Source: Methanococcus maripaludis C5
GTDB lineage: Archaea > AGJL01 > Methanococci > Methanococcales > Methanococcaceae
Length of the DNA: 64,000 bases
NCBI RefSeq assembly: GCF_000016125.1
Contig: NC_009135.1
Span: 620,001 to 684,000, forward strand
Reading direction: 5' to 3'
Made by a program: the position numbers and the translations under genes. Positions 8,028 to 52,803 of the stretch are shown in pieces. The notes under the pieces were generated by a model, which was not told where the DNA came from, did not search any database, and saw only the letters and a list, made by a program, of their open reading frames with translations. The number at the start of each line of letters is the position of its first letter. The first letter of the stretch is position 1.

Positions 8028-8090
8028 AAGTAATAATGGTATTAAACTATGTATTTGGACTAACAGTTCAAGCCAGATATTGGTGATATT

Positions 8091-10055
8091 ATGGAAGAAC
8101 CAAAAATAGGAGTTTATGTCTGCCACTGCGGTGTAAACATTGGCGGTGTAGTTGACTGTGAAAACGTCGCAAGAACTGCAGAAGGACTCGAAAATGTTGT
8201 GATTGCAAGAGATTACAAGTACATGTGTGCGGATCCTGGGCAAGAACTCATCAAAAAAGATATCAAAGAACTTGGATTGAACAGGGTAATTGTTGCAGCA
8301 TGTTCTCCAAGACTTCACGAACCTACCTTTAGAAGATGTGTCGAAGAAGCAGGTTTAAACCCATTTTTGTTTGAATTTGCAAACATTCGTGAACACTGTT
8401 CATGGGTACACATGAAAGAAAAAGAAAAAGCAACTGAAAAAGCAAACGACCTTGTAAGAATGGCTGTTGCAAAAGCAAGACAACTCGAACCTTTAGACTA
8501 CCTAAACGTTCCAGTTACCAAAAGAGCAATGGTTATCGGAGCAGGAGTTGCTGGAATTCAGGCAGCACTTGATTTAGGGGATGCAGGTTACGAAACAATT
8601 GTGGTTGAAAAAACACCGTCAGTTGGGGGTAGAATGGCCCAGCTCGATAAGGTATTTCCAACAAACGACTGTTCAATCTGTATTTTAGCTCCAAAAATGG
8701 TTGACGTTGCAAAACACCCAAATATTAAACTTTACTCTTACTCCGAAGTAAAAGATGTAAAAGGGTATATTGGAAACTTCAAGGTAAAAATTGAGAAAAA
8801 ACCAAGATATTTATCCGAAGAAAAATGTACTGGATGCGGTTCATGTGAAGAAGTATGCCCTATATCAGTTCCAAACGAATTTGATATGGGAATTGGGCTT
8901 AGAAAAGCAATTTATAAGCCGTTCCCACAAGCAGTTCCTGCAAAGTACACAATTGACAAAGAAAGCTGTATAGATTGTGGTTTATGTGCAAAAGTCTGCG
9001 GACCTCAGGCAATCGATTACGGTCAAAAACCAGAAATTATCGAAGCAGATGTGGGTACAATCATTTCTGCAATCGGATACGATCCATATGACCCAACTGA
9101 AAAAGAAGAATATGGATATGGAAAAATTCCAAATGTCATAACCTCAATGGAACTTGAAAGAATGATCAACGCATCTGGTCCAACGATGGGTAAGGTAATC
9201 AGACCAAGTGACGGTCAAAAACCAAAAAGAATTGCATTTATACAGTGCGTTGGTTCAAGAGATGCGAAAATTGGTAAAAAATACTGTTCAAATGTATGCT
9301 GTATGTATGCAATGAAAAACTCGCAGTTAATTAAAGAAAAAGCTCCTGAAACAGATATAGACATTTACTACATGGATATCAGAGCATTTGGTAAGGGATA
9401 CGAAGAATTCTACGAAAGAAGCTCAAAACAGTATGGAATCAAATTTATCCGTGGAAGACCTGCACAAGTGCTAGATAATCCTGACGGAGATAATCCAATA
9501 ATCAGGTCAGAAGATACCCATTTAGGTGAAATCTTTGAAAACGAATACGATTTAGTAGTTCTTTCAGTAGGTATGGTTCCAACATCAACTGCTGACGAAG
9601 TACAAAAATTACTTGGTGTTTCAAGATCCGCTGACAGGTTCTTCATGGAAGCACACCCTAAATTAAAACCTGTTGATACTGCAACAGATGGTATCTACTT
9701 AGCAGGTGCATGTCAGGGTCCAAAAGATATCCCTGCATCAGTTGCACAAGGTTCAGCTGCGGCATCAAGAGCTGCAATACCTCTTGCAAAAGGGGAAGTT
9801 CAGGTTGAACCAATTGTTGTAACAATTGATGAAAATGTCTGCGGTGGATGCGGTATCTGCGTACAGCAGTGCCCATACGGTGCTCCAAGATTCGTTGAAA
9901 AAGACGGTAAAGTTGTAGCAGAAGTTCTTTCAGCTTTATGTAAAGGCTGTGGAACCTGTGCAGCAGGATGTCCTAGTGGTGCACTTGAGCAATCTCACTT
10001 TAAAACAAGCCAGATATACGGACAAATTGAAGGCGCGTTTAAGGATTCTTACTAA
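8091..10055 (+). CDS. hdrA: Heterodisulfide reductase subunit A, cysteine form
   Basis: HdrA is the FAD-containing subunit of the electron-bifurcating heterodisulfide reductase complex; it accepts electrons from the hydrogenase through VhcD and splits them between ferredoxin and the HdrBC branch. The 654-residue protein shows an N-terminal cysteine domain ([12 protein letters not shown]), an FAD Rossmann motif [19 protein letters not shown] near residue 147, ferredoxin motifs near residues 245 ([12 protein letters not shown]) and 290, a Cys group [11 protein letters not shown] near 405, and two C-terminal ferredoxin motifs near 583 and 617. There is no in-frame TGA, so this is the Cys paralogue rather than the selenoprotein known in methanococci. 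ATG at 8091 follows GGTGATATT. Genes for HdrB and HdrC are not in the window. Confidence 0.95.
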
Positions 10056-29862: not shown

Positions 29863-31365
29863 TTAATTACTTCCAAAAAATTTTTTGAAGAAATTACTTA
29901 AAATGTATGAAAAACTATTGAGTTGATCTTCGGTATCTTTTTTTCCAAGTTTTGCCAATTCAAAGTTTGTATTTATTTCCAATGCTCTATCGTAACATTC
30001 TAATGCTTTTTCATAGTTTTCAAGTTTAAAAAAGGTATTTCCTTTGTTATTCCAAATTTCTTCATCTTCTGAATCTAATTCCAATGCTTTGTCATAACAC
30101 TCGATAGCTTCATCGTATCTTTCGAGTTTATAAAGAGTATCTCCTTTGTTATTCCAAATTTCTTTGTCATTGGAATCTAATTCAATGGATTTATCGTAAC
30201 ATTCTAATGCTTCTTCGTATCTCTCAAGTTCAAAAAGGGCATTTCCTTTATTTTGTTGCGCTTTAGTGTAATTAGAATCTATTTCTAAAGCTTTATCATA
30301 ACAGGTTATTGCTTCGTCGTATCTCTCAAGTCCTGTTAAAGCATAACCTTTGTTATTCCAGAATTTCTCATTTTTAGAATCTATTTCTAAAGCCTTATCT
30401 AATCACTCAATGGCTTCTTCGTATCTTTCAAGTTCGTTCAAAGAAGATCCTTTTTTATTCCAGAATTTCTCATTTTTAGAATCTATTTCTAAAGCCTTAT
30501 CTAAACACTCAATGGCTTCTTCGTATCTTTCAAGATTTGAAAGAGAACAACATTTACTATACCAAATATATTCATTTTTAGAATCTATTTCTAAAGCTTT
30601 ATCATAACACTGGATGGCTTCGTCGTATCTTTCGAGTTCATAAAGTGCGTATCCTTTATTGCCCCAAATGACATAATCTCCAGGAGATAGGAGTAAAGCT
30701 TTATCATAGCATTTTATGGCTTCGTCGTATCTTTCGAGTTCATAAAGTGTATTTCCCTTATTATTCCAAGCATGCATATAATCAAAATAGTTTAAAGCTT
30801 TATCATAGCATTCTATGGCTTCATCATATCTTTCGAGTTCATAAAGTGTATTTCCTTTATCAGTTAACATGTATATATCATTTGGATAGGTTTCTAAAGC
30901 GATATCAAGACATTCTAAAGCTTCATCATATCTTTCAAGACCATATAATGAGGCACCTTTCATATAGTAAACTTCTGGATTTTCGTCATATATTTCCAAT
31001 GACTTATCAAAACATTCAATGGCTTCGTCGTATCTTTCAAGATCATGCAATGCATATCCCTTATATTGCCAAACGTCATAATAATCAGAATTGATTTCCA
31101 AAGCTTTATCATAGCATTCTATGGCTTCTTCAGACCTATTTATTGCATATAAAATATAGCCTTTACTGACCAATGCTTCTACATGGTATGGATTAATTCT
31201 TAAAGTTTCATCAAAACTTTCAATTGATTTTTCAAAGTTTCCGTTTCCAAGATAGTCAAGTCCGCTATCAATCCAGTCTTCGGTAGATGATCCAATCGTG
31301 CCTGCATAACATGTATTCATAATAAAAAGAATTGAAAATAGTATTAAAACCCCCTTTAATTTCAA
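29863..31365 (-). pseudogene. Secreted TPR-repeat protein interrupted by an in-frame TGA
   Basis: The frame encodes about 500 residues: a signal peptide (MKLKGVLILFSILFIMNTCYAG) and some thirteen TPR units of 34 residues with the recurring core ERYDEAIECYDKAL. TTG at 31365 is the best start, since GGTGA lies six bases before it; ATG at 31377 overlaps that site. One TGA at 30403-30405 replaces the Cys codon TGT of the repeat core (EEAIE*LDKAL). The rest of the frame is open to TAA at 29863. The repeat copy 102 bases upstream in the gene is identical over 75 bases except for this base. I find no selenocysteine insertion hairpin in the 3' region, so a nonsense mutation is the simplest reading. 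Confidence 0.85.
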
Positions 31366-50247: not shown

Positions 50248-51015
50248 CTAAAATGAAACTATTCCAACGGATAATAATATCGTAGTTGCAGATAAAAATA
50301 CTATATCATTAAATCCAATTTTTTGACCAAGTGTTTTTATTTTGGAATCTTTTGAATATCCTCTTGAAAGCATTCCTAAATATGTTCTTTCACCTTGTTC
50401 ATATGATTTTAAAAAAACAAGTCCGACTAAAGATCCAAAAGTATTCAAAAGATCATTATAACTTAAATTTTTTCGGTTGAGTGCTCTTGATTTCTGCGCT
50501 TTTAGGGTGGATTCTAAAACATCGAACATTACAAAAAGGTATCTTATCATCATTCCAAGAAGGGTAGACATAATGCTCGGAATTCCAAGTTTTTTTCCAG
50601 CATTAATTACTTCATACATCGGAGTAGTCGAGGAAAGTAGCACTACAGAGGATATTGATACCAAAAACTTTAAAAATAACGAAATTCCAAAATCCAATCC
50701 TTCCGCGTATACTGGAAGCATTCCCAAATAAAATATTACTGATCCTCCTCGAATGAATGGCTGAAATAATGCTATAAATCCACCAAATGGAATTATCATA
50801 ATGATTCTTTTAATTAAATTTAGAAGAGGGATTTTTGAAAAGAGCATTACGAATAAAATGTAAATTTCCATTAAAATCATCAGATGAATATTGTTAAATA
50901 TTGTTGCAGTCAAAACTACGGCAAAAACAAAGATTAATTTGATTCTAGCATCTATTTTATGAAGTGGACTTTCAACAAATGCATCTCGTTCTAAACTATG
51001 AATTGATCCGTGCAA
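50248..51015 (-). CDS. cbiQ: ECF-type cobalt/nickel transporter transmembrane subunit CbiQ
   Basis: CbiQ is the T component that joins the ATPase to the CbiMN substrate module in cobalt or nickel uptake. The 255-residue protein has about six membrane segments and the coupling motifs STLKAQKSRALNR and GERTYLGMLSRGYSKD (the A-R-G type sites). The N-terminus (SIHSLERDAFVESPLHKIDARIKL) is typical. The frame starts at TTG 51015 with only a weak binding site. The matching ATPase gene cbiO, usually next in line, is absent; a TPR gene follows instead. Confidence 0.85.
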   Translation of the reverse strand: MHGSIHSLERDAFVESPLHKIDARIKLIFVFAVVLTATIFNNIHLMILMEIYILFVMLFSKIPLLNLIKRIIMIIPFGGFIALFQPFIRGGSVIFYLGMLPVYAEGLDFGISLFLKFLVSISSVVLLSSTTPMYEVINAGKKLGIPSIMSTLLGMMIRYLFVMFDVLESTLKAQKSRALNRKNLSYNDLLNTFGSLVGLVFLKSYEQGERTYLGMLSRGYSKDSKIKTLGQKIGFNDIVFLSATTILLSVGIVSF

Positions 51016-51578: not shown

Positions 51579-51905
51579 TTAGTTTTCTGATGTTGATTTT
51601 TTAAAGATTGAACCAACGCCAAATGAAAGTGCAGTTATTAATAAAATACCAATAATTAATGCACCAATTTCCCCAATTTTGTCCATTCCTGGAATTGCAT
51701 AGTCGGGCATTGGTGAAGGTGCAATCGTTCCTTCTTCTTCAAGACCTGCTTCTTCCAAATTTGCTCCAAGAACTTCTTCGTTAATGATTTTTTCTGCAGC
51801 GCTTTCCAATCCATCAGGGTCACCTGAAGCTAAAAATGGTGCTGCAAGTCCAAGTAATAAAGCAACAATTAATCCTGCAACCAATATTGAGTTATTGTTA
51901 TTCAT
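51579..51905 (-). CDS. cbiN: Cobalt/nickel transporter auxiliary subunit CbiN (PDGLE type)
   Basis: The 108-residue protein has an N-terminal membrane segment ([21 protein letters not shown]), the PDGLE motif in [13 protein letters not shown], and a second C-terminal membrane segment ([19 protein letters not shown]). It is the partner of CbiM in metal uptake. Its ATG at 51905 follows GCGGTGA and overlaps the end of cbiM by eight bases. It should still be translated even if cbiM is broken, unless coupling fails. Confidence 0.9.
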
Positions 51906-52607
51906 GTGAAATCACCGCTTTTACGCTCTTTACAAGATCCGGTCGAGCTGATGCGAGGTAACCTACCACTATTGCAGTGATTAAACCTTCAATAATTCCG
52001 ATAACTGCGTGGTAAAGGCCCATAAATTGAAGTCCAAGGTCAATAGGGAACGTTCCTGCAATTGCAAGTTCTGCTGCACAAACTAATGAAGCGATGAATG
52101 TTGCAGACCATCCTGCAGTAAATACTGCTGCGTGGAAGTTTGTTTTTTTCAATGCTTTGAAGATGTAGTATCCTACAAATCCGCCTACAATACCCATGTT
52201 AAATATGTTTGCACCCATGACGATTAAACCACCGTCTGCAAAGAATAATCCTTGAACAATTAAAACAAGAGCTAACATTAATACCGCAGCCCACGGGCTA
52301 TCAAATAAATACAACTCGACTAATAACCGATCAAAAAATATGCTAACATTAATACCGCAGCCCACGGGCTATCAAATACTATCGCAGTCAATGCCGCACC
52401 AACCATGTGTCCACTGGTTCCCCAAGGTATTGGCATGTTCATTGCCTGAATTGCAAAAATACCTGCTGCAAGTGCCGTAAATAATGGAACTGTTTTTTCA
52501 TTCATTTCTTTTGATGCCCATCTTAAGGACATACTCAGGAATATCAGGGAAATTACCCAAAATATCCCGCTTTCCCATAATGGGATAAATCCATCTGGTA
52601 TGTGCAT
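51898..52607 (-). pseudogene. cbiM: Cobalt/nickel transporter substrate-binding subunit CbiM, disrupted by a 71-base insertion
   Basis: CbiM binds the metal with its N-terminal His. The gene starts ATG at 52607 ([14 protein letters not shown], after GGTGGGG) and reads normally through [23 protein letters not shown], then meets a stop at 52320-52322. The remainder, from a second copy of [12 protein letters not shown] on, is intact in another frame to 51898. The cause is a 37-base direct repeat (52271-52307 and 52342-52378) with 34 foreign bases between. Removing 71 bases restores an open frame of 212 residues, the family's usual length. As it stands, the downstream part lacks the metal-binding N-terminus. 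Confidence 0.85.
52271..52378. repeat. 37-base direct repeat pair inside cbiM
   Basis: Positions 52271-52307 and 52342-52378 are identical over 37 bases; 34 unrelated bases (52308-52341) lie between. Both copies encode [12 protein letters not shown] on the minus strand. The 71-base period shifts the frame. Recombination or slippage between copies would delete exactly 71 bases and repair cbiM. Confidence 0.9.
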
Positions 52608-52803
52608 AGCCCCACCCATTTTAGAGTATCAATTTTTTGATATATTTAATACAGATAATATCTGATATATCGCAGTATTTATATGTTATCATATTTTATT
52701 ACTATGTAACAATAATCTGTAATTATTATTACTCATATGGGCAAAATTATATTATAACCGGATTACAATTAAGAAGAAAAGAATTAACAAAAATGTTGAA
52801 AAA

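Follow-up and report, generated by a model that had tools for sequence, protein, structure and literature searches.

A cbiM-type metal-transporter gene in this genome is interrupted by 34 bases that lie between two identical 37-bp copies of cbiM sequence, a structure that is most probably the outcome of ectopic (neo-CRISPR) spacer integration by the organism's own type I-B Cas1-Cas2. Central to this reading is a correspondence in length, in that the duplicated target in cbiM measures 37 bp where the native CRISPR repeat measures 37 nt, and the 34-nt insert falls inside the native spacer range of 34-40 nt. The lengths expected of spacer integration were predicted from the anatomy of cbiM before the array was examined. 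Since 37 nt is a common CRISPR repeat length, the length match alone is not decisive.

Structure of the interrupted gene

The window, by which is meant the whole 64,000-base stretch of DNA that was analysed, corresponds to positions 620001-684000 of a chromosome of 1,780,761 bases, which is accompanied by a second contig of 8,285 bases. Within the window the two copies of the target (copy 1, 52271-52307, GCTAACATTAATACCGCAGCCCACGGGCTATCAAATA; copy 2, 52342-52378) are identical at 37 of 37 positions and, as the outer bases mismatch on either side of both, the maximal exact match is 37, neither longer nor ambiguous. Between the copies lies the putative ectopic spacer (52308-52341, AATACAACTCGACTAATAACCGATCAAAAAATAT), which is unrelated to them. 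An earlier reading, made from the sequence alone, had described exact 37-base repeats around 34 unrelated bases in cbiM, and this is borne out, with the interval 52271-52378 exact.

The broken gene now reads as two overlapping open reading frames on the minus strand. The 5' part of this cbiM/nikM gene (52320-52619, 99 aa) covers positions 1-90 of the Pfam CbiM family and has its stop codon within the insert, and the 3' part (51898-52365), which is shifted in frame, covers positions 75-205. The true start of the gene is probably the MHIPDG at 52607. When 71 bases, equivalent to one copy plus the insert, were removed in-script, a single open frame of 651 nt was recovered, and the repaired CbiM is 212 aa long when counted from the conserved MHIPDG start. 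The sequence-only reading was thus correct that cbiM is broken and that deleting one 71-bp unit repairs the frame precisely.

The gene order after the broken cbiM is a PDGLE-domain gene downstream, which would take the NikN/CbiN partner role (51579-51905, minus strand; Pfam PF13190), followed by a cbiQ-type transporter subunit gene (50248-51015, minus strand; Pfam PF02361). Both of these partner genes are intact, which suggests that the insertion is recent. A second CbiM, also intact, is encoded at 85 kb of contig 1 together with genes that are labelled CbiN-like and CbiQ-like from a reading of their sequences, with no family search behind the labels. The broken copy would appear to belong to a nickel-type (NikM) system and the intact copy to a cobalt type. 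Elsewhere in the window, at 29974-31128, about 11 diverged units of 102 bases (34 codons) form TPR-like coding repeats.

The empty site in relatives

In all the relatives aligned, which extend from congeneric genomes that are 93% identical through to other genera, the target is present as one copy without the insert, and in the nearest relative the two BLAST halves of cbiM overlap by exactly 37 bases. Such a single-copy empty site across relatives indicates that the insertion and the target duplication arose in this lineage. A cas1 gene is missing from G005 and from the two nearest empty-site relatives, G002 and G004, but the empty site occurs in other, cas1-bearing relatives as well, and the association between the absence of cas1 and the empty site is therefore weak.

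The native CRISPR-Cas system

The genome has one cas locus, of type I-B, and one array. The locus contains a single full-length cas1, adjoining cas2 and cas4, as well as cas5b, cas7, cas8b and cas6b, and the putative catalytic E, H and D residues are present in Cas1. The array is located directly downstream of the cas locus on contig 1 (742879-744906), approximately 70 kb from the cbiM insert, and is made up of 28 perfect repeats, each exactly 37 nt, plus a degenerate 29th. Across the 27 spacers between the repeats, spacer length ranges from 34 to 40 nt, and three spacers have the minimum of 34 nt. The repeat sequence includes ATTGAAAC, which we take to be the Cas6b handle. At up to three mismatches the native repeat is confined in this genome to 742879-745762, and at the same threshold it was not found in any other genome of the family. 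A canonical CRISPR array at cbiM is accordingly ruled out, as the "repeat" found there is cbiM sequence.

The array has two further features. Around 820 bases (contig 1, 744906-745762) separate the 28th repeat from the degenerate last repeat, and this gap holds a gene for a RelE/YafQ-like toxin along with a small DUF2683 gene, the latter a candidate antitoxin, which together would represent a toxin-antitoxin pair within the tail of a CRISPR array. Among the spacers, numbers 12 (743718-743754) and 16 (744015-744052) share 28 bases and numbers 13 and 27 share 18, which suggests that the same element, or related ones, supplied spacers more than once.

Target sequence and source of the insert

Does the cbiM target resemble the native repeat in anything other than length? 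The two are identical at 11 of 37 positions, against a background mean of 10.7, the similarity between their ends is not significant, and an obvious leader match was looked for in the flank of the target with none seen. The target does hold a GC-rich inverted repeat, AGCCC-AC-GGGCT, the 3' arm of which occupies positions 25-29; the native repeat carries CAAG at the corresponding place (25-28). For the strongest inverted repeat p is ~0.06 and for the position of the arm ~0.07 in either orientation, both of them post hoc and neither significant; a comparable arm feature is found in ~7% of random 37-mers, so the position of the inverted repeat is a lead only. The off-target sites of S. thermophilus resembled the leader-repeat junction, and the non-resemblance at cbiM thus counts mildly against spacer integration, with the caveat that those events were mostly half-site and in vitro.

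With regard to the origin of the 34 bases, the sequence-only reading had suggested looking for them in the rest of the genome, and no copy was found there at up to three mismatches. Nor was a protospacer found in IMG/VR, phages, plasmids, genome collections or the genomes of the phylum, where four insert patterns were used for IMG/VR and two for genome_contigs, and where the matches obtained were chance ones that were short or of low identity. The canonical spacers served as a control: among phages, plasmids and family genomes all 27 lacked a convincing source, and the best match was 28/37 to one viral contig. Given that no convincing source turned up for the canonical spacers either, the protospacer search lacks power and the null for the insert says little. 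Foreign DNA may well have supplied the insert.

The wider genome was scanned piecewise for exact direct repeats of at least 25 bases with a gap, over 932,285 bases (52% of the genome). The bases scanned yielded neither a further structure of repeats around an unrelated insert nor another ectopic event, which argues that the cbiM repeat is not due to chance; the number of ectopic events stands at one. The other gapped repeats consisted of apparent coding-repeat arrays, one microsatellite and repeats on the small contig. This microsatellite, of AAAT, runs for at least 85 bases from about 1,090,604 of contig 1, and the 8,285-base contig carries spaced direct repeats of 41 bp and 27 bp (8034-8167 and 137-225), which are possibly iterons or origin repeats.

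Alternative explanations

The structure could also be ascribed to error-prone repair of a break in cbiM, where template switching or end joining doubled 37 bp and added a 34-bp filler. Duplications with filler DNA occur generally, and a single event in which no site preference is visible is compatible with an origin of this kind. However, the filler is without a template in the genome, 34 untemplated bases would be unusual, and the exact lengths of 37 and 34 would have to be coincidental; repair is consequently regarded as unlikely. An assembly or cloning artefact is given much less weight. The long form is known from one assembly, and a join error had been named as the main alternative by the sequence-only reading, but the assembly comprises two contigs at 99.85% completeness, and such an error would hardly yield a 34-mer that is absent from the remaining genome and from plasmid records. 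The uniqueness of the 34-mer, which holds at up to three mismatches, makes a join error very improbable.

The idea of a phase-variable metal-uptake switch, reversible and upheld by recombination between the 37-bp copies, was also put forward in the earlier reading. It draws on the fact that losing one unit yields an intact CbiM, and recombination between direct repeats is possible. Against it, the comparison with relatives, which are of other species, returned the short form only, and the interrupted form is present in none of those aligned. Moreover, the site has neither a recombinase nor a paired arrangement, the insert shows no sign of a recombinase site, the lengths of 37 and 34 are those of a CRISPR repeat and spacer, and the structure as a whole resembles one recent insertion. 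The ON/OFF proposal has thus not been sustained and can be given scarcely any credence. Least credible of all is the footprint of a transposon or casposon whose target duplication was exceptionally long. A target-site duplication does exist, but inverted repeats are absent from the insert, and the searches with the 34-mer have so far turned up no element with such ends in any genome. The sequence-only reading already held 37 bp to be too long for a normal transposon; the usual lengths are 2-14 bp, or 14-16 bp for casposons, and 37 bp is far above both.

Proposed mechanism and significance

In the case of ectopic spacer integration, the type I-B Cas1-Cas2 complex, together with Cas4, would have put a 34-bp prespacer into cbiM and not into the CRISPR array. 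The strand ends of the prespacer would attack opposite strands of cbiM at positions 37 bp apart, as in normal spacer acquisition, and gap filling would double the intervening 37 bp to leave the order target-spacer-target. The resulting gain of 71 bp shifts the frame such that CbiM is truncated after about 95 residues. Cas1-Cas2 is in this way the putative agent of the insertion, and metal transport would presumably be lost through the break. Reversion through copy-to-copy recombination, in the manner in which arrays lose spacers, is mechanically possible. The generation of a crRNA from the one-spacer unit is unlikely, because the cbiM target has neither the native repeat sequence nor the Cas6b handle.

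A broader and considerably more tentative proposition is that the native, unmanipulated type I-B adaptation complex is a natural mutagen, which broke a chromosomal metal-uptake gene by ectopic spacer integration and left behind a one-spacer proto-array that recombination can cleanly excise, with revertible loss-of-function variants as a possible consequence.

Most of what is known about off-target integration comes from in vitro work or from overexpression of Cas1-Cas2. If spacer integration at cbiM is true, a tractable methanogen has had one of its genes broken naturally in this way, which would reveal a mutational cost of ordinary CRISPR adaptation and be a rare natural trace of the CRISPR integrase as a mutagen. 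Ectopic integration would then account for the broken metal transporter subunit of the strain. It would also provide a simple signature to look for across all genomes, namely a repeat-length duplication flanking a spacer-length insert outside an array, and the natural rate of neo-CRISPR birth would become measurable.

Comparison with known systems

Natural candidates for such loci were reportedly described in Yersinia pestis and Sulfolobus islandicus by Nivala, Shipman and Church in 2018. A passage in one paper attributes off-target spacer integration in vivo, with Cas1-Cas2 overexpression, to Nivala et al. 2018 (PMC11788318), and a passage in another cites Nivala et al. 2018 for non-canonical integration near IHF-like motifs (PMC9456107). 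In vitro, the Cas1-Cas2 of S. thermophilus integrates at non-CRISPR plasmid sites that resemble the leader-repeat junction (PMC6895254). These events share with cbiM a target in non-CRISPR DNA, but the S. thermophilus sites are junction-like, with integration there probably half-site, whereas the cbiM target shows no such resemblance.

The type I-B array of the same genome, with its 37-bp repeats and unique spacers of 34-40 nt, has lengths in common with the cbiM structure, from which it differs in that the cbiM "repeat" is coding sequence without a leader or Cas6b handle and flanks one spacer only. The neo-CRISPR loci of Nivala et al. 2018 are like cbiM in that one spacer-length insert outside the array is accompanied by a repeat-length target duplication; unlike those loci, the present case is found in a type I-B methanogen and within a protein-coding metal-transporter gene. 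Off-target spacer integration is a known but rarely documented process, of which cbiM would, on this comparison, be a further case.
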